Source: Candidatus Endolissoclinum faulkneri L5
GTDB taxonomy: Bacteria; Pseudomonadota; Alphaproteobacteria; Thalassobaculales; Thalassobaculaceae
Length of the DNA: 64,000 nt
Assembly (NCBI RefSeq): GCF_000510265.1
Contig: NZ_CP006745.1
Coordinates: forward strand, 889,654 to 953,653
Reading direction: 5' to 3'
The notes under the pieces are model-generated. The model saw only the letters and a program-made list of their open reading frames with translations, was not told where the DNA came from and made no database searches. Positions within the stretch are counted from its first letter, which is position 1; each line of letters opens with the position of its first letter. Of this stretch, positions 3,970-64,000 are shown piece by piece. A program made the translations under genes and the position numbers.

Positions 3970-5520
3970 TCAATCTCCCAAGAGTACAGCAAGAGCTTGC
4001 GAATGCAAAGTATGCACTGCTTGATCTACAGCAAAACGCGCCTTTACCGCAGTGATCCATGGCTGTGCTGCCTCGGCAGATTTACCGACTAAAGCGTCCA
4101 AATAATTAGCTGCCATCAAAAGATCACCATGATCAGCGGCTGCTTCAGCTCGATTAATTATAGCGTCAAGAGAATTATATTCATCTGTTTTGGTGCGTCG
4201 CAATGTTACTAACGAAAATATACGTTTCATTACTTTGTCAACTATATTATTAGAATTACCGATTGAAGATGCGGATTTGATTATCGATTCGGCAAAAGAT
4301 GGGAAACTATACCGCAAGTCTGCCATCGAAGGTACACCATCCACATGATTGCGTAAAAAAACAATAGCGTCGGCAATTTTCAGCTGATCCCAAGCAGCAC
4401 CTTCTAATTCGTCGAGTTCTGTCGCAAAAGAAATACCTTTTTGATTAGCTTCCTGTAAAAGATCAATCGCGACCAAGAAAGCCCCAACCTTCTTTTTTTG
4501 ATTTCGGTATTCTTCTACTTTGTATTCTAGCTCTTTTTGAGCAACAGCTATATCGTCAAGTCGAGCGATCAGATTGGCATCCCTGTCTTCAAAAGAGTTT
4601 TGCAAAAATTTTATGCGCTCTTGCAAGATAACAAAATCATCAGAAGAGAAAAGCGGCCATCCAAAATTTTTTTGTCCTTTTATATCTAAAAAACTACGTT
4701 CTAAAATAGATAAACGATCCGACAAACCCCAAGCGGTTGGCAAAAATAAATTACTATCTTTCCCGCTGTTCTCTCTGTAGCGAAAAGTTGCTATAGTAGC
4801 AAATAGACTTTGAACTTTGCTATCCATCGCATCAATTTGCTCAGTTAGGCTATCGATACTTTTTTTTGTTGAATTAACCCATGCGGTTATTTTGGGCAAA
4901 AAATTAGTCTTAGTTTCCAAGACAACTAAGCGCGCTTGCAGCGACTCAAAATCTTTTTTCAACATTGCAAGAGAGTCGAAGAGAGAATCTAAAGATCCGT
5001 ATTTATTAGTTTGAGATCTAATATCTTCCGACGAATTAGATACATCTGGCTTTAAAAAGCCTATAATAGAATTGATCAATGCCAAAGGCGAGGTTACATC
5101 AACCATAGACACATATTGCTCTGCTTTTTCGCGCCACTCCGAATAACTGACATAACCAATGCTTATAGCCAACATAATAAATATAATAATAATTAAACGC
5201 ATGAAACCAACGCTTAGACTTTGATTCTCATTTGATAGTTTAGCTTTTTTATCACTTACGGTATTATTGCTAGTGTTTGCATCGTTCCCAGTCTGACAAT
5301 GAGAAACCTTTATCTTTTTGGTACTCGAAGCAGAATTCTGAGATGGCGTGACCATTAAACCCGCATTTTTTCTATCAAAATCACATTTATCATTATAGTT
5401 TGCTGTAGGAGAAACAACATTAGAGCTGACAGCTAATGAATCTTTATTACTAACAGATATTAGGCATCCTCTCGGATGCAGTCGGTTTACTAGTAAATAT
5501 ATGGAGCTCCTCCATTCCAT
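3970..5520 (-). CDS. Mitofilin-like (COG4223) inner-membrane coiled-coil protein
   Basis: A 516-residue protein with a long polar, low-complexity N terminus (1-105), one transmembrane helix (about 106-122, MRLIIIIFIMLAISIGYV), a long periplasmic coiled coil (about 160-340) and a C-terminal alpha-helical domain. The architecture and its place between hemD and hemY match the alphaproteobacterial mitofilin/Mic60-related family (COG4223), inner-membrane proteins linked in evolution to mitochondrial MICOS. The start ATG at 5520 is supported by a strong AGGGAGAGGA Shine-Dalgarno just upstream. The stop is 4 bp before hemY. The N-terminal 100 residues are poorly conserved in this family, so their sequence carries little information. 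Assignment rests on architecture and synteny rather than on strict motifs. Confidence 0.8.
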   Translation of the reverse strand: MEWRSSIYLLVNRLHPRGCLISVSNKDSLAVSSNVVSPTANYNDKCDFDRKNAGLMVTPSQNSASSTKKIKVSHCQTGNDANTSNNTVSDKKAKLSNENQSLSVGFMRLIIIIFIMLAISIGYVSYSEWREKAEQYVSMVDVTSPLALINSIIGFLKPDVSNSSEDIRSQTNKYGSLDSLFDSLAMLKKDFESLQARLVVLETKTNFLPKITAWVNSTKKSIDSLTEQIDAMDSKVQSLFATIATFRYRENSGKDSNLFLPTAWGLSDRLSILERSFLDIKGQKNFGWPLFSSDDFVILQERIKFLQNSFEDRDANLIARLDDIAVAQKELEYKVEEYRNQKKKVGAFLVAIDLLQEANQKGISFATELDELEGAAWDQLKIADAIVFLRNHVDGVPSMADLRYSFPSFAESIIKSASSIGNSNNIVDKVMKRIFSLVTLRRTKTDEYNSLDAIINRAEAAADHGDLLMAANYLDALVGKSAEAAQPWITAVKARFAVDQAVHTLHSQALAVLLGD

Positions 5521-8969: not shown

Positions 8970-9165
8970 ATAAAATCAACTTTAGTGGAATTTTAAGGTG
9001 TTAACGAATGCACAATTGTTAATCTTCGTAAGCTTATCAAGACTTTAGATAAGTAATTGATGTCATTTTATAGACAAAAATTATCTTATACAAACACAAA
9101 CCTTTCGACTGGCAGTGCAAGATGCAAAATATACCAACAAATAATTTTAAAAGTTAACCTAAATT

Positions 9166-9201
9166 AATATCATTCAATCATGGCTATGATTGAATGATAT
9201 T
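9166..9201. repeat. Perfect inverted repeat, 16-bp arms
   Basis: AATATCATTCAATCAT (9166-9181), loop GGCT, exact reverse complement 9186-9201. About 240 bp beyond the pgsA stop; no T tract next to it, so it is not a textbook terminator. Confidence 0.8.
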
Positions 9202-9437
9202 ATCAAACAAATCAAGCGCTAAATTATTTTCTTAGAGTAAACACTAAGATCATCAAAACAATGATAAAAGTAGTATTACGACACAATGCTCGCACTACGC
9301 TTACTACAATAGACGCAAGCACAAGCAACAGCAATCTATTGTAAGAATCAAAATATTTATTGATAAATTTAAGTTATTGACGAACTTGCAGACAGTTCCT
9401 TTCTATAAATGGGAAAATTCTCTATCTAAAATAAAAA

Positions 9438-10912: not shown

Positions 10913-12142
10913 ATGAAACCGGTTGAAAGTATAGCATTTGCTGAATGGATGCATCATCCACCTTGTAGTCCCGTTTTATCTTTATTAACCAACAGTGGCT
11001 ATTTAGCGCGGTTTGTCGGCGGAGCAGTTCGCAATCATATGCTTGGCTTGCCGGTTGTTGATTTTGATATAGCCACTAATGCATTGCCTGCTAATATACT
11101 TGCTCTATGTACATCAGCGGGTTTGCACGCGGTTCCTACTGGAATAAGACATGGTACTATAACCATCTTTATCGATGGTGCTTTCGTAGAAGTTACTACC
11201 CTACGCCGAGATGTGGATACCGACGGCCGTCATGCCATGGTATCCTTCACAGAAGATTGGCTCGAGGACGCCTCCCGTCGAGACTTTACTCTAAACGCAG
11301 TTTATCTTGATATGGATGGCAATCTTTACGATCCAACTACTACCGGGATTGCTGATATTCGTGCCAGAAGAATTCGCTTTATTGGTAATCCGCAGATTAG
11401 AATTCAAGAGGACTGCTTGCGAATTCTTCGTTTTTTCCGCTTCTATGCTGAGTATGGGGATAAAGAGCTTGATATTGATAGCCTTAAAGCTTGTGTTGAT
11501 TTGGCGCCAAGTTTATCTTCGCTATCCGGCGAACGAGTATGGAAAGAATTTTCTCGGCTGTTAATTGCTCCAATGGCAGAAGAAGTGATAGTTATCATGG
11601 CAGAAAGTGGTGTAGCAAAGTATTTGTGGGATGGTCCATTTGATGCAAGCCAACTCGTAAAATTCATAAATATCGAGCGTTGCTACGGTATGAATCCAAA
11701 TCCTATTAGTCGTCTTGCTGCTTTACTAGCTGAGTCAAATACAGCTAGATCAGTTGCTAAAAGACTTAAATTTTCTAATGCTGATGCAAAACGCTTAACT
11801 GCTGCTATTGCGACACCGAAAAATCCTCTGATGAATACTTACGAGTGCAAAACAACAATATATCGCTTAGGCGCTAAAAACTTTATCAATGCTAGAATGC
11901 TTCTCGCAGCAAAAACGGGGAAGGATATTGAAAATGATCTCGCTATTGCCCGACATTGGACACCGCCTGTTTTCCCTCTAACTGGCATTGATATAGTTGC
12001 ACTCGGCGTTGAGCCTGGGCCAAAAATTGGGGAATTGCTACGTTTAGTAGAAAATTGGTGGATTAGAGGCGGTTTTACTGCAGATAAAAAAGCCTGCAAG
12101 TCAAAATTGCGCCGTATAGTATCCAACATCAAGATAAACTAA
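10913..12142 (+). CDS. cca: CCA-adding tRNA nucleotidyltransferase (class II polyA polymerase family)
   Basis: Adds or repairs the 3' CCA of tRNAs. The 409-residue protein has the class II nucleotidyltransferase head: FVGGAVRNHMLGLPVVDFDIA (about 34-54) with the GG motif and the metal-binding DFD pair (Asp50, Asp52), TLRRDVDTDGRHA, DASRRDFTLNAVYLDMDG and the EDCLRILRFFRFYAEYG neck. The C-terminal helical part is normal in length. The enzyme is needed here because tRNA-Thr(CGT) at 1720-1792 has no encoded CCA. PolyA polymerase activity in the same family cannot be excluded from sequence alone. The Shine-Dalgarno is weak; a GGAG lies about 20 bases upstream. Single gene, no operon partner. Confidence 0.92.
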   Translation: MKPVESIAFAEWMHHPPCSPVLSLLTNSGYLARFVGGAVRNHMLGLPVVDFDIATNALPANILALCTSAGLHAVPTGIRHGTITIFIDGAFVEVTTLRRDVDTDGRHAMVSFTEDWLEDASRRDFTLNAVYLDMDGNLYDPTTTGIADIRARRIRFIGNPQIRIQEDCLRILRFFRFYAEYGDKELDIDSLKACVDLAPSLSSLSGERVWKEFSRLLIAPMAEEVIVIMAESGVAKYLWDGPFDASQLVKFINIERCYGMNPNPISRLAALLAESNTARSVAKRLKFSNADAKRLTAAIATPKNPLMNTYECKTTIYRLGAKNFINARMLLAAKTGKDIENDLAIARHWTPPVFPLTGIDIVALGVEPGPKIGELLRLVENWWIRGGFTADKKACKSKLRRIVSNIKIN

Positions 12143-13483: not shown

Positions 13484-13529
13484 GTTGTTTTATTACGTTC
13501 TTTTTTTTTAAAGAACGTAATAAAACAAC
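13484..13529. repeat. Perfect inverted repeat, 20-bp arms
   Basis: Left arm 13484-13503 (GTTGTTTTATTACGTTCTTT), six-T loop, exact reverse complement at 13510-13529. An open frame runs through it, but the hairpin explains the sequence better than coding does. Confidence 0.85.
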
Positions 13530-14157: not shown

Positions 14158-14210
14158 ATTAGACAATATTAATTAACAATGCCTAGCATTGTTAATTAAT
14201 ATTGTCTAAT
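14158..14210. repeat. Perfect inverted repeat, 25-bp arms
   Basis: Arms 14158-14182 and 14186-14210 are exact reverse complements with loop CTA. It lies about 280 bp upstream of efp and has no T tract. A stem this long with no mismatch in otherwise drifting DNA suggests recent formation or selection. Confidence 0.9.
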
Positions 14211-39103: not shown

Positions 39104-41615
39104 ATTAGATGTAGGCAACCCAAAAGTGTCAGCAGCCGTGACTATTACATAAAAAATTTAGTCAAAGAATTGCTTAGATTTGTCTAAAGGATTAACAATT
39201 CACTAGTCAGCTATTAAGTAGTAGCTTACCGAAATATCCTAGTAGATAGTCTCCGAGCAAAATTCAAACTAAGACATTACCTTTATTATTGTTTCCTAAC
39301 AAAAGCATAATTAGGAACTGCCCATACAAGAATGTTTGTTATTGTATTAATAATAAAAATTAAGAATAATTATTAATTTACTGATAGTATTTTTTATTCA
39401 TTGATAGAGATCTTTTCGATTATTATAACTATAAAAATCTATAATGCAATCGCCAAATTAATAAAGCAAGCAAGCAATTATTTTTACTTACTGGAAAAAT
39501 TAATATAATTAAGATTATATTAAAGTGATGCTGTAGTGATCATCTAAAAACTAATTGTTAGGCTTATATTCCTAACTGCAATACATAATATTCGTTGTCA
39601 AAGACAAAAAAACAAGAATAATGATTTTGCTAGATGTAAAAAATCGCAACTATTAGATTATTGACAGATAGATCAAATCTGATAATAGGTTCTAGCACAT
39701 AAAAACATAAACTACTTAACATTGTGCAATCGTAAACATTCTCCTACCAATTTACGACTAATTTAAATATAAATTTTTAATAAAAATGATCTAAATTTTA
39801 GACCGGTTAATCTTATTAAAGGCGAGCCAGATAATTTTTCCTTACTTAATATGCGCTATAACGCATAACAGTATAAGAATTAATCTAACCTAAAGGAAAC
39901 TAATAAATCTTTACCTTAGCAACTTTTAATTTCACAGCAATTAGCAAGTTTATACTCATCGAGTGTTATCAAAAAATATTGCGTTAAGCTGCAATGTTTG
40001 CGATGCAATCCCCTAAATAGAGTACTTCAACGTAACACAGAATCGATGCGCTAAGAAATAACTAGATCTAAATAACTACAAATGAATTTGTACCTGAAAG
40101 AACCCAAACAGTAAATATTAACAACAAATACAAATCTAGATTATCCATCACAGGTCATAGACTTGCTCTGAAAAAAATTAATAACGCATATTGTTCCACT
40201 AACTACAAGTCCCTAGCTAATAAGCTAGTATAAGTTCACGAAATTGCAATCAAGAACAACAAGATTCTATCAGTGTAGAATTAAATTAACCTTATGGATT
40301 ACATAAATCAACGCATGCTTATCTTAATACTTATTATGGCCGTAAGCACAAGATCAGTAAAAAGCGTATTATTAGGATAAGCTCCGGAGACATCTTCTAA
40401 ATAATTTAATACAAAATATAAATACTTAGAAGTTTTTGGCATTTAAAAATATTCCATAATATAATGAATAATATACTCCATAATATAATAAATAATTAAT
40501 ATAATAAATAATTATTTATTAGCGACCAAACGCACTTTATGACATAAAAAGAGAACACAATTATATGACTATTAGGTCTTTAATAAGGATTTCTTGCTAT
40601 ATTAATCAATATTAATTATCCTAGAAAGATGAAGTATATTAAAAAAAACTTCTTTAGTGAAAGCAGATTTCTATAATTAAATGTAGAATTTTAGTAAATA
40701 AAATCTTTGGATTAGTTTGGAGTTAATTAAATTCTAATTACTAAAATAAGATAAAAAAAGTTAACTAATCCGCCTAAACATTTTTTATCTTGGGTGGCTA
40801 TACTACTGCTAAAGGCAAAAATGCTATTTTACAGACGCTATAGATTAAAAGGTAAAATATCAGCATTGTTTACGGCACTAAGAGGGATATTTGTTTGGCT
40901 CTCGTCATTTTGGTAGCATACTACTCTGCTCTTACAAAGGAGCGCATAGTTGTTTGAGCAATGTGCTAACGCTTAATAGCTTGCTTGCTTCCAAGCAATA
41001 GCATGCATTTAAGCCGTAAATATAAAATACCTTCACTTATAACAAGTGCTATTAATAAGATCTAAGTCAAGGAAGTTGTTTCTGTTATTAAGTTAAAATA
41101 TATCAACAAACTATCCTAAATTGAAATAATTTCTTAACCTGAATCTAGGCTAAAGCAAATGCTATTAAAATAAGGAATAATCTTATCCAAGGTCGCTCAT
41201 GTTAAACTTACTTACCAATTTTATCTGCTATTAGCTGTTGTATTGTTATCAATATACTAAGGTGTATATCAATATTCTTTTCTCATCCCAAGTAAAATAA
41301 TAACAGCATCACATGGAATAATTTTATACCACGATGATGGTGCAGTGTTAGAGTTTGAATAACTGATTGCATTGAATGTATTGATATTATGAACTATTGT
41401 CAATTTATCTTATATTACCACGTCGCGACTTCCTTGTCTTGCATATCGAAAATTGTAAGTTGTAACTATAAAATTCAAAATTCCACTTGTGTCAGTAAGA
41501 AATTACTGAATCTAATTGCCTCTAAGCTACATAGCTTAGTCCGTACAAATACCCGACGGTAGATCCAAAATAGTTATTATAAGGCTCTCTTGTGTAATTT
41601 ACTAATTATTCTTCT
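39104..41615. other. Non-coding gap argS to FbpC-type gene (2.5 kb)
   Basis: No recognisable gene. In many alphaproteobacteria the argS-to-tat interval holds a SPOR protein, nagZ, scpA and scpB; I see no intact copy of any. Weak AT-rich repeats lie at 40454-40512. Confidence 0.5.
40454..40512. repeat. Degenerate AT-rich tandem repeats
   Basis: Two imperfect 24-bp units beginning CCATAATATAAT (40454 and 40478) run into a 16-bp repeat (ATAATAAATAATTAAT). Copies differ at several bases. Confidence 0.5.
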
Positions 41616-45550: not shown

Positions 45551-47545
45551 ATAGGTTTAGCTGTCAATTTGACAATTATGTAATACACTTAATTTTTATA
45601 GATATCTTGAATAATAAATTAATGAGCAATAATGTCTGCATTGATGATTATGTAATTATCTAATGGCGACTAAAAGCACTGATATCGCTTTTACTAAAGT
45701 TATAAAATTACTCAATCATTCTAGGCTAAAAATTAGCAACAGAGCAATTTTATTATAGATTCAGGGATTAGCTTGCAGCAGATAAACTAGAGAAAAATTA
45801 ACTAATCTTCCCCAGTAGAGATATTTGTGGATCATTTAAGCACTTAATCTTTTCATAAGCCGCTCAAAATATAACAAAATTTAAAATCTTCGATAATTCT
45901 GTATTATCTCGAATTATATTTAATAAGATCTATTAGAGTAAAATATTCCACCTTTGTTACGTTACAGAGACCTTTAGTAACGTAACAAAGGTAGTAGATT
46001 AGGTGACTGCCTTGTCAAGTTTTCCAAGATTATTTCTAATTAAACATCTAAATACAATCTTAACAATCAAATTATCTTTATAGTACCCATCAATAAAATA
46101 ATTACATGAAGAATATTACATCCAATCGTTAGATAATTTGTACAATAAACTTTTTATACAACACTTTCTTAGATTATTAGTAACATCAATAAAAGTAAAA
46201 CTTAGCAATTGGATTTATATATACAGCAAAATTTAATGTTAATTTTATTAAGGCTAACTTGACTAAAGGGTTTTGCGAATTCATTCTGTAGCATACCAAA
46301 GACTAATGCTACTAAAACAATATTAAATTTTAACTAACGATTTTAGATAAATACTTCTAGCTACTTAGTGTGAAGCGATGCCAAATAGCTCTATAGCGTA
46401 AGAGACAAATATTTAATAAATCCTTCTTTTTGTATTTTACCTAATTTTTTATAATTACATAACTATAGCTAAAAATACATTTTATTGCTTATGTGCTATC
46501 CTATTACCAGACAAAAATACTAACAATATCCTAATACCCTAACATCAAGCTCACTAAAAATAAAATAATAAATAAATAATAAAACTATCATATAATTTTT
46601 TAAAAAGCAACAAAGCATTTTATTGCTGGTTTAATTAAGTGCATGAAAACTTAAAAATAGCAATAAGATCTAATTTTTATCACTAATTAATCGTTGTTTT
46701 AAGTAAAAATATGTTATCTTAACTAGCAGTACTATCGGTACATTAGCAGGTATCATTATACGATCAATCTTCACTAGATTTATCTTTTTAATAAAAAGAT
46801 TATTACTTTTACCAACAGCTATCTGCTAAAAATCTAACTATATGATACAACTAACAAAAACCTCTGTTCGATTTTTAGTAGATAATCAAATAAATTGAAA
46901 GCATAATATATTTCTCCAACTACAGTAACACAAAATTATGTACAAGATTACCTTATTGCTAGAAGCAAATGCATAAAAATAACTGTTTTTATTCTAAAAA
47001 AACAAAATTTGATTATTAAGATATCCAGATAGTTATAGATTAACGACTGATAAAATTATTTTCAACGCTTGTTAATTACAAATTAGGTAACCTAAAAGCC
47101 TATATATAGCTTATTGCTAAATCATAAAAACAATAGTTACGATTGCCAATCAAGGCAGCGCATTAAATTATTAATAGGATTAAATAGCGAATAAATTAAA
47201 AAATAATGATGACTCTATTGTAAGACGACAGATTGATTAGTTATCTTAGATAGATTTGAAATATAAACATTAGGTATACCCATAATCATTATACCGACTG
47301 GCTTGCAAAGCAAGCAATCATCCGATTACTTACCGCTAAATATTCAACATAAATATTAGTATTCTTAAAAAAAAGAAAATAAGCGAATTGCTAATCTATT
47401 AGCTCACCGGCAATTTATTTTTAATTACAACGCAAAAATACAATATATTAAAAAGCTGGTATGAGGTCTTTCTTCTTAGATTAAAAGCTAAGTTATATTT
47501 TGATTAAACTATTTGCTGATAAAGATAAAAACCGAGCAATTATAC
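45551..47545. other. Convergent gap lipoprotein to aminopeptidase P (2.0 kb)
   Basis: No gene recognised. Contains a perfect hairpin with 16-bp arms at 45950-45992. Confidence 0.6.
45950..45992. repeat. Perfect inverted repeat, 16-bp arms
   Basis: ACCTTTGTTACGTTAC (45950-45965), 11-nt loop, exact reverse complement at 45977-45992. It lies 400 bp beyond the lipoprotein stop with no T tract. Confidence 0.85.
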
Positions 47546-57905: not shown

Positions 57906-60231
57906 CTAGTGAATTTAAATAAATAACGATTTGATAACGCATGAGGGAGTATGTTTATCGAGCGATAAAATACAAAAAATAATTCAGCAACATCATAAAG
58001 TTATTGTTTATCTAGTGATTATTTTAGCTTATTAATTAATGTCCTATTCGATTTGTGAATTTAAACGATGATTGATTATAAATACCTTATTAGTAAAGTT
58101 TTACATCTACTAAGAGCTAAGCTTCTTATACCTTGATTATATTCATATAAAAAACTAATCTTTAACTAATCTTTATTGTTAAATAAAATCGCTTAATTAG
58201 CTTGCATAATCTATTATGCAAGCCTTTGATTTTACTATTAAGTAGTAGTTCGTTCTATTGATAGGGAGAAATTAAATTCACTTTTTATAAATGCACCTAT
58301 CGTGACTTTGCTTTATATTTTAAAAATGAAGAATTTGTGTTTGAGTATGAATTCAACAATAAATACGATAAGTTGAAGATTATTCAATATGAATAAGTTA
58401 CTGTATTTCATGCAAATAATATATTGTCTGCATTAAGCGATGTGTTTGGTAAAACTGCATATTGTTCTTGAAGAAAAATTACAGTAAAGATTTTGTATGC
58501 CATGATAATATTTTCTTGCTTATTACAATGAGGAATATTGTTTATTGATACTGTAAGCTAATCAATCTGACCTATAATATAGCTACAATATACAATACTG
58601 ATGGAAGCTATCACGAACTATAGTACTATACTACCTTGTGATTTTGTCTTACAATCAAGTTAGTAATTTAATCAAGTATAGGGGCATGAATCTTATACTC
58701 TCAAGAATATATGGAAAAGTACGATGTAAGTATTTTGCTTTTCATAGAAAGAGATTTCTAATTCACATTTTTGTCAGATCATTGCAAGATCCAAATCAAT
58801 GTATCAAAAAGCATTTGATCCATTTGTATCACATAAATATATAACCTATTATTCATCAAAGTTAATATCAAACAGTTTTTTTAGAGTACTAAAAATTAAA
58901 TTGCTTCATTATTACTTTAAACACTTTGATAATATCATTTCTATTACATTATTTCAAGATATAATATAAAGCTACAGTTTTGATAAATGATATAAACTAT
59001 ACAAAAAAAATTATTTCTTATTAATAAATTCTATTTAAAGCTAGATAATAGCTCTGCTTTTACAATTATTTATTTAACTACAAAGCTTTAAAAATATAAT
59101 TTTAGATTTTTATATAATTAAGCTCAACTTGAGTGTAGTATTTTAGTAGTAAACTTGATTATTAATTTTTATTGGTACAAAGATATTTTGAATACTGTTT
59201 CTAGAAAAAGATTTTGTGAAGCGATAATGATTTAATGAAATAATAAAATTAGATTTTCATAAGAAACATTATACTGGTCAAGATAGAGTTTTGTTATTTT
59301 ATTATTTAAAAATGTAAATAATAAAATAAGTTAATATCTTTACTTGATTCATATACACAAATAATACTTATTTAGGTAATTGAATTTACTATTAAAATAT
59401 AAATATACTAGCTTTAGAAATGAAATTTTGAATCTTCTATGATCAATGTACGGGCTAAATCAAAAAATAATATTGTATTTTGCATCTAACATTATTAAGC
59501 TCTACCGCTTAAAAACGTAATTAGCCATTTTATTTTTGCATCTCTGATACAAAAATTTAGGTCAGTTATGTAAACTAGTATTTTCTGATAAAATCATTTT
59601 AATTGGTTGTTAGTTTATTTCTTATTTAAAACAGAATTGTAAAAAACATATGTTTTGCTATATTAGCTACTTAGAAATTGCTATAATTACCCTTGATGAG
59701 TTAGTGTTTACTATTTTATTTGTGATTAAGTTAGGCAATTATTATAGGAATAACAAGTCCAATTACTCATTATATTAATTGGTCATGGCTAGTACTAGTG
59801 ATTAACAAAATCAAGGACAAAAACATCATACTTTTGGTATTATCATAGCCTAGCAGATTAACATTCAAAGGTAACTCTGATTTATCAAAAATTAATTTAA
59901 TGGGATTTAGTAAGTAACAACCGTTCATTCTTAGTATAAAATAGCTATCTGTTGTTAAATAACTACCATGATCAATTAACCATATTAGGGAAAATATATA
60001 TTTTATCTTTATTCAACAAGAGTAATCTTTGCATGTGCTTGAAATAATTGCATATTGTTTAATATGCAATTACCAAAAGAATTCTTTAGGCTGTATTATA
60101 TACTATATGATGAACATAAAAATTGTTAATTTTATTTAACAGCCGCTTTGTATGCTATCGATTTTTTAAATTAAGAAAAGATCTTATATTTTCCTACTAC
60201 TTTAAGTATCAATTTGTATTAGCCTCTAGAT
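57906..60231. other. Non-coding gap fdx to tRNA-Cys (2.3 kb)
   Basis: Very AT-rich. Short open stretches around 58260-58390 in two frames look mildly protein-like, but no family is recognised. A 14-bp-arm hairpin lies at 59295-59328. No intact gene. Confidence 0.55.
59295..59328. repeat. Perfect inverted repeat, 14-bp arms
   Basis: TATTTTATTATTTA (59295-59308), loop AAAATG, exact complement at 59315-59328. Pure A/T stem, so less surprising than the others. Confidence 0.6.
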
Positions 60232-60305
60232 GGCCCCGTGGCAGAGTGGTTATGCAAAGGACTGCAAATCCTTGTACATCGGTTCGATACCGGTCGGGGC
60301 CTCCA
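60232..60305 (+). tRNA. tRNA-Cys (anticodon GCA)
   Basis: 74-nt cloverleaf: acceptor GGCCCCG with CGGGGCC, D arm GCAGAGTGGTTATGC, anticodon stem-loop AGGA CTGCAAA TCCT (GCA), T arm ATCGG TTCGATA CCGGT, discriminator T and encoded CCA at 60303-60305. It lies 69 bp upstream of tRNA-Asn in the same direction. Confidence 0.97.
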
Positions 60306-60374
60306 AAGAAGAAAGATAAGTTGTTTATCTTAAGCTATAATTTTAGAAACAACTTGTACAACCTTGACATCTAA

Positions 60375-60449
60375 TCCCGGGTAGCTCAGTGGTAGAGTCG
60401 GCGGCTGTTAACCGCTTGGTCGGGGGTTCGAATCCCTCCCCGGGAGCCA
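60375..60449 (+). tRNA. tRNA-Asn (anticodon GTT)
   Basis: 75-nt cloverleaf: acceptor TCCCGGG with CCCGGGA, D arm GCTCAGTGGTAGAGT, anticodon stem-loop GGCGG CTGTTAA CCGCT (GTT), T arm CGGGG GTTCGAAT CCCTC, discriminator G and encoded CCA at 60447-60449. Likely co-transcribed with tRNA-Cys. Confidence 0.97.
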
Positions 60450-61721
60450 TTTGTCTATTAGATACCGTAGGTCGTTAAATTAGTTTTTTTGTTTTCGAAA
60501 ATTGATATCATCTTAGTACTAAATTAGTAAAATATTATTTTGTTAAAAATTTTAACTTTAAAGAATAATTAAAAGCCTATCAAACCAATTGATACTATGC
60601 TATTAGTGGTATCAGAAAATGACGTAGAATCTTTTATAATGAAGATAATCGTCAAGCTATATTGTTTCTATATTTAGACAACAGCAAGAGTGAGTTACTC
60701 TTAGTGAAACACTCAATACTAGATTATTTAAAACTTAATTTGCATGTAAGTTAAAGATTATTTTGAAATATAACTACATTATAAATAAAAAATTTGGAGA
60801 ATATATTAGCTTTATCAAGGCTAGATTTTAAATTAGTTGAATATTATTCACATAGCATCATGCCAAGAACATCAAAATCATATTCTATGATGATTAGTAA
60901 ACTTCAGTTAGCAGCTAAAATCTTAGCCAATCTTAAGTTTTGATTATTATTGGCTATGTACGAACAGTTAATATAACAAATATACAACTAGCTGTCTTTA
61001 ACTAATACTAATCTTATATAAGATTAGTATTAGTTAAAGACAGTGATTTATTTGCATTATATTGGGAAGCATATCAAAAATGATATTGCCATGTAAAAAT
61101 TAGTGATAGATGATTCAAATTCATACTTACATAGTTGTTAATTAAAGCCATAAGTATACTTAATCCAAGAGGGATTTTTTAAAAAGGCAAGCCGCTAATC
61201 ATGTAAGAGATGAAAGAGCAGCTTTTATCTTGCTAGAAGATTATCTGGAAAACACGATACTGCGATTAACTACTGCTCAAATCGAATTGTATACCTGAAG
61301 ACTATGGTTTATTAGATAAATACTCTAATAAACCACTCGTTGCATTATAAAGAACAATAAATATTATAATATTGATCATGATTTTTCGATTCTCTCTGCA
61401 GAGCAGAAGTGTATCTAAGCAACAACAGCGTCTAATTATTTTTATAGTATAACCCAGAGTCAAAGTTTAATTCATAGTTAAGAAAGTTCTATTATACTGT
61501 AGGCAAGTGTGCAATTTTACACGTGACGATCAAAAGACTACAGCAGAACTAGTGTAAAACAAGAACATAACACGATACAAGCTATATTTCCTTAATTTGC
61601 TAATGGATATAGATTCATTTAAGATAATTATCAATTATAATATGCCACACATATTTAAACCTTTAACTTGTGTATTCTACGAATGTATGGTTACAATACA
61701 AAAAAAATTACGGCGGATTAA
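60450..61721. other. Non-coding gap tRNA-Asn to msrB
   Basis: 1.3 kb without a recognised gene; contains the longest perfect palindrome of the window (60992-61043). Confidence 0.6.
60992..61043. repeat. Perfect 52-bp palindrome (26-bp arms, no spacer)
   Basis: Positions 60992-61017 and 61018-61043 are exact reverse complements with no loop (left arm begins CTGTCTTTAACTAATAC). Long loopless palindromes are normally unstable in bacteria with active SbcCD. No T tract, no adjacent gene. Confidence 0.92.
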
Positions 61722-62123
61722 ATGATAAATAAAATCAATAAGTCTAATTCTGAGTGGAAATCTGAATTAACTCCTGAGCAGTATAAAGTCACACGAGAGC
61801 ATGGAACTGAGCAGCCATTCGTGAATAAATATTACACAACCACAACACAGGGAATATATGCATGCGTATGCTGCGATCAGCCATTATTTGACAGCAATAC
61901 TAAATACAAAAGCGCTTCGGGTTGGCCTAGTTTCTCGTCTCCAATTGTAGACAGCGCAATCGGTACTAAGATAGACTACTCTTTCTCTATGAAACGCAAA
62001 GAGATACACTGCAGTAAGTGTCGAGCTCATCTTGGACATTTATTCTCAGATGGCCCCCCGCCCACAGGGCTACGGTACTGTATAAACTCAACCAGTATAA
62101 ATCTAAAAAAATCGAAAATATAA
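61722..62123 (+). CDS. msrB: Peptide-methionine (R)-S-oxide reductase
   Basis: Repairs methionine R-sulfoxide in proteins. 133 residues: ELTPEQYKVTREHGTEQPF, the structural zinc pairs CVCC (Cys48, Cys51) and CSKC (Cys97, Cys100), SGWPSF, HLGHLFSDGPPPTGLRYCIN with the catalytic Cys120. All key residues are present. Start ATG at 61722 with a GGCGGA-like site 5 bases upstream. Reducing partner is thioredoxin (not in this window). Last gene of the window. Confidence 0.97.
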   Translation: MINKINKSNSEWKSELTPEQYKVTREHGTEQPFVNKYYTTTTQGIYACVCCDQPLFDSNTKYKSASGWPSFSSPIVDSAIGTKIDYSFSMKRKEIHCSKCRAHLGHLFSDGPPPTGLRYCINSTSINLKKSKI

Positions 62124-64000
62124 TACACAAATTGGCGCACAAATATGCTAATAATTTTATTATTAGTGAGTTGTCTATATGATAAATTTAAAATCTTATT
62201 CTAAACTAGCCTTAGATTAACACATCAAATCTATTAATCGAGATGATTAATAGAAATTAGTAATATTTTTGCATTAAAATGAATTAAACTTAATCCTTGA
62301 TTAATTTTTGCTTTTCCTTAAAAACACACTCTATTTGATTTAATATTTGTAAAAGATATTTTTTGATATATACAATACGCTTCGGCTATATTTTGAAAAG
62401 AAATTATACAATTTTAATGGAACCTAATAAATCTTTTTATTTAAAAGTCCTAGACCTAATATAAGAGTTTAAAATAAACTGTGATTGAAATTATTATTTT
62501 AAATGCAGTGCCTATTTTCTCATTTGTATAAAACACCAAGCAACTTAAGAAATATATAAATAAAAAATTTCTTATAATTTGCAATAACCGGATTATTTAG
62601 ATAGTTTTTGATATTTCGCTTGAGTAAATAGGATTAATCAAAAGAACTTTATCTAAATAAAAGATTCAGATAGTTGTTTTTATGCTTAATTAAAGGCGCA
62701 TGACTGCACTAAGTACCATAATGTACAAATAGTAAATACTAATTTATCTGTTACTAAAACAACCTAACAGTTATACAATTAGCCATAAGTGAATATCTAA
62801 ATTCAATAGAGACAATTTGCTATAATCTTAAGTTATAAAAAATCTCTGATAAAACATTACAATAATTAACTTCGTTACGTAATGATATGCGAATGCACTT
62901 AAGCTATTGCAAATCATAAAAAGTTAGTTAAATTATTCGTTAATTATTAATTAAAACTCGCTATTCGCGTAAATACCCTATCCAATAAAAGTATAGTTTT
63001 TGTAAAAGATTAAAGAAAATTAAGAAGAAAAATCTTAATTTATCTAGCTAAAAGAAGTATTAATGCCCATAATATCAATTATATCTAACGTACAAAAGTA
63101 TCTGAAAATTATTTTTTACTAATGAATACTTCCGTCGATTATTAAGATTATATGTTCATAAAATCAACTTCTAATACTGATTACTTCTTGTTTTAAGTAT
63201 TACTCGTTATATGAGTAATACTTAAAAATATGAATTTATGTGTAGAAGATAATACAATAGTCTAATAAACACAAGAGCTGAGCTAATAAATAATTGGCAT
63301 TATAAATTTATTAAGCCTAACCTTATTAACTACTAAAATTTTTGCCCTTTAGTTAAAGCACGCCATTAACACTCTAATATCAATAATCAAAAATATATCA
63401 ATGATTGACTGTATCAGATATTATAACAGGTCAAAGGCAATCAGAATAACAAACAACTTATTATTAATACAATAATAAGTTGTGAAACAAATATAAACAG
63501 CATTATACCAAATAATTTTGATTACTTAATTTGATTGAATACGATCATAGAATTTAGTTAATCTCATTAGTCTAATAAAAAAAAATAATTTTAAAATTTT
63601 AAATTAATTTAAACATAGAATAATCTTTATTTTAGGTTCGAATTATATACAGCTATTTAATAGCTCACTTCTCAAGTTCTATTCTAAATTAGAATATATT
63701 TTTTGCACTGTAATTGCTTGGTGGAGAGGATAATCTAAAAAAAATACAACAATATTTAATCAATCCGATTAAATAAGACTTAATTTTACTTTAACAGCAA
63801 AACTATGCTTTATCTGCTTAGCGCCCAAGCCGTAACAGTGCAAAAAAAATAAAATAGCTTAAAACATTATTTTAATAAATAAGCAAGTATAAAATAGCTC
63901 AACATATTTTATACTATTTTTAAGAAAAAAATCAAATGTAATTATATTACATTTGGCTATAATTGCTTATAGCTCGCCTAATAAGGGATACTATCCATTT
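62124..64000. other. Non-coding end of window (1.9 kb)
   Basis: AT-rich with no recognised gene or RNA. A perfect hairpin with 15-bp arms lies at 63191-63227. Confidence 0.6.
63191..63227. repeat. Perfect inverted repeat, 15-bp arms
   Basis: TTTTAAGTATTACTC (63191-63205), loop GTTATAT, exact complement at 63213-63227. No gene nearby; one end of the stem is T-rich, so a terminator-like fold is possible. Confidence 0.75.

Follow-up and report, generated by a model that had tools for sequence, protein, structure and literature searches.

The chromosome of Candidatus Endolissoclinum faulkneri L5—an obligate tunicate (sea-squirt) symbiont with 55.6% coding DNA—carries a 52-bp perfect palindrome that is probably a mutational scar without function, left when template switching corrected a quasipalindrome in neutral DNA. 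Decayed intergenic DNA would first have contained an inverted repeat whose arms probably did not match perfectly (a quasipalindrome). A stalled replication fork would then have briefly copied the other arm in place of the normal template and so made the repeat perfect, with existing bases being replaced and no arm being added. The perfect hairpins of both E. faulkneri strains (L5 and L2), dozens in number and unrelated to each other, may have arisen by the same process, and substitutions would later have eroded them. Such hairpins would accumulate in sequence that is largely neutral, in cells in which SbcCD and RecA are undetectable and mutSLH is reportedly missing. Taken alone, the palindrome is ordinary; the genome-wide hairpin pattern is moderately interesting.

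The palindrome and its surroundings

The palindrome lies in the window, i.e. the 64-kb stretch of L5 DNA that was analysed (chromosome positions 889654-953653; Table 1). An earlier, sequence-only reading had reported a loopless 52-bp palindrome there, and the palindrome is real: its arms, of 26 nt each, are 100% complementary with 0 nt between them. It is confirmed to be exact, single-copy, and far beyond chance. The 1,518,636-bp chromosome contains one copy (the other match being its own reverse strand), and the chance expectation for loopless 26-bp arms at the L5 intergenic base composition is ~3e-9 per 64 kb. As single-stranded DNA, positions 60982 to 61053 have a folding energy of -22.7 kcal/mol (z -10.0, 200 shuffles).

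The gap that contains the palindrome is 1.27 kb long and is bounded by tRNA-Asn and an msrB-like (SelR) gene; no open reading frame longer than 53 aa is present in it. The tRNA gene ends at 60449 (ARAGORN), 542 bp before the palindrome, and the msrB-like gene starts at 61722, 678 bp after it, in agreement with the earlier statement that the surrounding 500 bp are free of genes.

Table 1. The palindrome, neighbouring genes, and other perfect hairpins of the 64-kb window, in window positions.
Feature	Positions	Strand	Remarks
Perfect loopless palindrome, 52 bp	60992-61043	.	arms 60992-61017 and 61018-61043
tRNA-Cys	60232-60305	+	upstream neighbour; ARAGORN, Rfam
tRNA-Asn	60375-60449	+	nearest upstream gene; ARAGORN, Rfam; conserved in L2
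msrB-like (SelR) gene	61722-62123	+	nearest downstream gene; 84% identical in L2
Perfect hairpin	14158-14210	.	arm 25, spacer 3
Perfect hairpin	13484-13529	.	arm 20, spacer 6
Perfect hairpin	9165-9202	.	arm 17, spacer 4
Perfect hairpin	45950-45992	.	arm 16, spacer 11
Perfect hairpin	59294-59329	.	arm 15, spacer 6
Perfect hairpin	63191-63227	.	arm 15, spacer 7
Perfect hairpin	40486-40521	.	arm 13, spacer 10
Perfect hairpin	63453-63483	.	arm 13, spacer 5
Perfect hairpin	60045-60072	.	arm 12, spacer 4
Perfect hairpin	61305-61335	.	arm 12, spacer 7

Palindromes are hard to sequence, and the L5 genome was obtained from a short-read metagenome, which would favour an assembly or amplification artefact. 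As an explanation, such an artefact is nevertheless very improbable. The Velvet k-mers used (61 and 67) exceed 52 bp, reads mapped back onto the L5 assembly revealed 96 variant sites genome-wide, and none of the primers for PCR-closed gaps lies near the palindrome (PMC3851785); of the primer coordinates, three were tested and 3/3 fell on the published base of the L5 chromosome. Additionally, the separate assembly of L2 contains the same class of hairpins at similar density, and some hairpins sit within open, conserved genes. An assembly artefact at the palindrome itself is unlikely.

Perfect hairpins in E. faulkneri and other alphaproteobacteria

Perfect hairpins (arms of at least 12 bp, spacers of at most 10 nt) are in great excess in both strains: a 464-kb sample of L5 contains 90 of them, compared with a mean of 1.0 in five block shuffles, and a 400-kb sample of L2 contains 82, compared with 2.6 in block shuffles. 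These totals vary with the spacer limit and the removal of overlaps (89, 90, or 97 in L5; 82 or 86 in L2). Spacers are mostly 0 to 11 nt, with fewer beyond, and L5 arms reach 37 bp. Ten L5 hairpins have arms of 26 bp or more, the palindrome being one of them; by length, it is the fifth of twelve loopless L5 hairpins. The window itself contains 11 perfect hairpins (arms of at least 12 bp, spacers of at most 12 nt), of which the six with arms of 15 to 25 bp have no sequence kinship to the palindrome. Arms of at least 15 bp occur at 10.8 and 12.8 per 100 kb in the L5 and L2 assemblies, respectively. E. faulkneri genes contain ~4.7 hairpins per 100 kb (9 in 190 kb, arms of at least 12 bp). In one of the placements of hairpins relative to genes, genes were called only where both strains were sampled, such that a few L5 hairpins beyond these areas are counted as intergenic without evidence.

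Imperfect hairpins are likewise present. Among 20-bp arms in L5 intergenic DNA, 19 are fully paired (shuffled: 0), 9 are paired at 19/20 positions, 12 at 18/20 (shuffled: 0.2), and 17 at 17/20 (shuffled: 1.4); the corresponding L2 counts are 18, 4, 15, and 15. That perfect arms outnumber those with one mismatch suggests recent birth or continued correction.

Two further features of the class are unpredicted by a simple template-switch model. In L5, C outnumbers G in the 5' arms (53 versus 20 hairpins, p 1.4e-4), an excess that is non-significant in L2 (37 versus 27, p 0.26), and hairpins with long arms are more often loopless than those with short arms (13/44 versus 14/139, p 0.003; L5 alone 0.009, L2 alone 0.10). 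The C excess hinted at strand-biased switching, for which a test of arm polarity gave no support: neither arm was preferred as the source (23 versus 16 in L5, 19 versus 25 in L2).

For comparison, 36 other alphaproteobacterial genomes were sampled, 34 of which had readable bases (1.09 Mb in total). With arms of at least 15 bp, these yielded 7 hairpins, including 3 in the 46.7 kb called non-coding, compared with 101 in all 864 kb of L5 and L2, including 92 in 426 kb of non-coding DNA. Per non-coding kilobase, such hairpins are thus ~3 times denser in E. faulkneri than in the pooled other alphaproteobacteria (p ~0.01), with the comparison sample of non-coding DNA being small and consisting of stretches that lack long open frames, which undercounts real intergenic gaps. 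Much of the per-genome contrast is due to the large amount of non-coding DNA in E. faulkneri. From each of two same-genus relatives with large genomes (G002 and G004), 40 kb was sampled, and no hairpin there reached an arm length of 12 bp; these genomes have almost no non-coding DNA. A separate observation concerns another alphaproteobacterium (G166; L101 or L102), which carries a loopless perfect palindrome of 56 bp (arm 28) with an inner part that looks like a bidirectional terminator.

The sequence-only reading had offered, as one option, that the palindrome works as a site, i.e. as a functional element under selection (a protein-binding site, a bidirectional terminator, or a bidirectional hairpin RNA). 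The stem is indeed perfect and stable, and a simple terminator scan of positions 59500 to 62300 picks it up on the + strand, where it counts 20 pairs, with 5 GC pairs, and finds 5 or more T among the 8 bases past the stem. Shuffles of the same region, however, contain a mean of 1.0 such sites—the same as the one reported—and an intrinsic terminator is expected just after the 3' end of a gene, which a position 542 bp past tRNA-Asn is not. The gene on the other side is also distant (678 bp), the longest stem at the L2 counterpart site is 6 bp, and an Rfam search of 59500 to 62300 up to E = 1 matched only the two tRNAs. An operator site found no support either, as one copy per genome and an L2 stem of at most 6 bp do not make a recurrent or conserved motif.

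The class as a whole shows no positional pattern either. Only 1/45 L5 intergenic hairpins with arms of at least 14 bp has a gene 3' end within 60 bp (4.1% of random points do), and a T-tract (at least 6 of 8) accompanies 1/45, versus 8.6% at random, so terminators are rejected for the class on both position and T-tracts. Distances from these 45 hairpins to genes do not differ from random, whether measured to 3' ends (p 0.14) or to 5' ends (p 0.90). With no stem in L2 and neither a positional nor a sequence pattern in the class, the option of a working site found no support, and we consider a functional role of the palindrome improbable. One hairpin stands apart, in that it is found at a gene 3' end in both strains (L5 chromosome [G000] ~1259282-1259329; L2 ~1232262-1232307) with paired changes on both arms; it could have a real function or could reflect ongoing correction of its arms.

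As one genome contains many similarly sized hairpins, the palindrome could be suspected of being a copy of a palindromic element that is dispersed in it, such as a REP, a MITE, or an element of the Rickettsia type. This is the least credible of the explanations considered. The palindrome is single-copy, an all-against-all comparison of 183 hairpins found only 11 pairs sharing at least 16 bp at E <= 0.01 (two of which are strain orthologues), and no mobile elements were reported in L5 (PMC3851785). A repeat family is therefore rejected, given a single-copy palindrome and hairpins without sequence relatives.

Origin of the hairpins

To compare the strains, 126 syntenic intergenic regions of L5 and L2 were aligned (63% identity over aligned columns). 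A test for stems at the partner site kept 70/97 L5 and 68/86 L2 hairpins. Partner stems of at least 12 bp were found for 2/70 and 2/68 of these, respectively, similar in extent to control sites (1.6% and 1.8%). Nearly all hairpins thus appear to be private to one lineage. For two hairpins, L5 and L2 each have a stem, and changes in one arm were accompanied by changes in the other. At the palindrome, 49 L2 bases align under the 52 L5 bases, and on a comparison of two strains, the palindrome seems to be found in L5 only. Intergenic identity between L5 and L2, obtained with the same aligner, is 0.71-0.72 for orthologous and 0.64 for non-orthologous regions, and because it is so low, the ancestor of the palindrome cannot be reconstructed.

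Complementarity at the partner sites was 0.43-0.47 versus 0.31-0.32 (58 L5 and 57 L2 hairpins). We dropped these values as proof of quasipalindromic ancestors, as conversion of unrelated arms gives ~0.51 when simulated and aligned with the aligner of the simulations described below. At the palindrome, 14/23 partner columns are paired, which is not clearly above the same simulated ~0.51.

Simulations run on the actual L5 and L2 sequences modelled three ways in which hairpins could originate: an unrelated arm is converted, an imperfect repeat is converted, or a new arm is inserted. The outcomes were compared with 39 L5 and 45 L2 hairpins (arms of at least 14 bp, enough flank). The observed identity of the worst arm was 0.528 in L5 and 0.576 in L2; the simulated values were 0.494 and 0.510 for conversion, 0.514 and 0.537 for quasipalindrome correction, and 0.366 and 0.368 for insertion. 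The partner span was 0.92 (L5) and 0.97 (L2), compared with 0.80 and 0.84 under simulated insertion; on average, hairpins occupy the place of sequence of the same length. In L2, the identities of the two arms (0.718 and 0.576) are about those of unaltered control sites (0.717 and 0.570), as would be expected only of precursors that were nearly palindromic to begin with. As a statement about the class, the arm identities appear to fit conversion, and somewhat better conversion from imperfect repeats; the weakness of the intergenic alignments is the reason why this reading of the origin is restricted to the class. According to PMC7202029 and PMC8794818, template switching at quasipalindromes would leave changes that are clustered, complementary, and length-neutral.

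A rather unlikely origin of the palindrome is de novo inverted duplication, in which new DNA is added as a copy of an arm (fold-back insertion, itself a form of template switch). Deletion of one arm raises the alignment score for 6/34 L5 and 11/40 L2 hairpins with arms of at least 15 bp (controls: 17% and 19%, respectively), a rate that in L2 is above its control; examples are the hairpins at 85890 of the L5 sample and 66066 of the L2 sample. The insertion simulation nevertheless fits the hairpin class badly, and at the palindrome itself, the score of 167.5 drops to 150.2 or 143.2 when one or the other arm is deleted, a cost of 17 or 24 points. Whole-arm insertion is thus disfavoured by simulation as a general route, although single cases may have arisen in this manner.

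Hairpins inside genes give a clearer view of the origin than intergenic ones. Averages for these were calculated over 18 rows, in which one locus occurs twice (in the lists of both strains) and aligned partner bases are scarce or lacking for two L2 rows. For several coding hairpins, the partner strain has a partial stem. A hairpin in L5 murD (L5 sample 228366-228399; L5 chromosome 1118019-1118052; L035 ~4366-4399) has a right arm that is identical in L5 and L2 at 16/16 sites; it encodes part of a stretch that is WIAGG in 8/9 relatives and WIVGG in both strains. The left arm of L5 is the exact complement of the right arm and differs from L2 at 5/16 sites. In the left-arm region, the relatives mostly have ALACYD(T/P), L5 has ALATYNP, and L2 has ALSYYNT. 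Some of the left-arm differences may therefore be changes in L2, and polarity is partial there. A second murD hairpin starts 140 bp upstream of the first.

In glpX of L2 (L061 ~11415-11450), four residues inside a hairpin are absent from L5 and from eight relatives, and unusual residues are also found just outside (before) the hairpin. Template switching possibly altered the conserved enzyme GlpX in L2. Both the murD and the glpX hairpins appear to agree with conversion in place.

We infer from these comparisons that template switching was the physical step and that the palindrome arose by the route common to the class. The sequence-only reading had proposed, among other options, that the palindrome arose recently by template switching. 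This proposal is supported for the hairpin class and may apply to the single locus, with ‘recent’ being supported only in the sense of after the split of L2 and L5. More tentatively, a raised rate of template switching could combine with weak counter-selection, such that hairpins would arise, stay perfect through further rounds of switching, and disappear more quickly than their flanks diverge; we hold this possible, with some doubt.

Repair genes, known systems, and significance

SbcCD is a hairpin nuclease with an in-vitro lower limit of about 20- to 36-bp palindromes, and recombination-deficient Escherichia coli dies on SbcCD expression if it carries a 246-bp interrupted palindrome, a palindrome that is tolerated by recombination-proficient cells (PMC4245961, in the part consulted). 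The earlier suggestion that SbcCD is absent agrees with profile searches, in which SbcD had no match in L5 or L2 and SbcC had no match in L5 (the AAA_23 model had only three sub-cut-off matches in L5, over 20 to 23 positions). Its absence is not diagnostic, however, because only 5/191 alphaproteobacterial genomes, the window's own being among the 191, have SbcD above the curated cut-off (47 have some match). Additionally, the same-genus relatives G002 and G004, in which no hairpins were found, also have no SbcD match. SbcCD absence as the sole cause is rejected on these grounds. RecA had no match in L5 or L2 and was found in two large-genome relatives of the same genus, and mutSLH was reported as lost in L5 (PMC3851785). 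Missing SbcCD is plausibly permissive, because a cell without RecA could hardly tolerate SbcCD together with many hairpins, and the missing repair genes may have a causal role in hairpin accumulation.

Three elements of this account are already known: the correction of quasipalindromes by template switching, the excess of inverted repeats in prokaryotes, and the perfect palindromes of nematomorphs. For each of the following sources, our statements refer to the portions consulted. Quasipalindrome template-switch mutation has been described in E. coli with lacZ reporters and at a thyA hotspot (PMC7202029). There, as proposed for E. faulkneri, an imperfect inverted repeat becomes more perfect by being copied from the other arm; in E. 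faulkneri, in contrast, the process is deduced from two strains, and arms extend to 37 bp and occur by the dozen. Similarly, in template switching at RNA hairpins (PMC8794818), a single event makes a perfect stem and keeps the arms in step, but those hairpins belong to RNA genes under selection, whereas the E. faulkneri hairpins are mostly in apparently neutral DNA.

Nematomorph mitochondria likewise have many perfect inverted repeats that are gained and lost, for which the authors suggest template switching and lax DNA maintenance (PMC6649704). The nematomorph repeats are up to 284 bp long and are found inside genes, with no excess of imperfect forms described in the sections consulted. The E. 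faulkneri hairpins, in contrast, are shorter and mostly intergenic, with a visible tail of decaying forms. Finally, surveys of prokaryotes found a general excess of inverted repeats, with genomes of high frequency more often being those of endosymbionts (PMC4060949, PMC10434271), and one of them discusses sequence-directed mutagenesis by template switching (PMC4060949). The excess in E. faulkneri is in the same direction; the survey thresholds begin at arms of 6 to 12 bp, and arms of 15 to 37 bp are not singled out in the consulted parts of either survey.

The character string ‘palindrom’ is absent from the main text of the L5 genome paper (PMC3851785), and we found no description of the hairpin pattern of E. 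faulkneri in the literature searched, which covered few subscription journals.

One palindrome in junk DNA matters little; the genome-wide pattern is useful. Two diverged symbiont genomes rich in neutral DNA provide 172 perfect hairpins in two samples, and these could show the lengths, spacers, strand preference, and decay of template switches in nature, without key repair genes. They also serve as a warning that long perfect hairpins in reduced genomes need not mean function. If the more tentative reading, with a raised rate of template switching, is true, template switches in a lineage that has no RecA, mismatch repair, or SbcCD would be naturally recorded in the E. faulkneri chromosome, and long loopless palindromes would be the end product.
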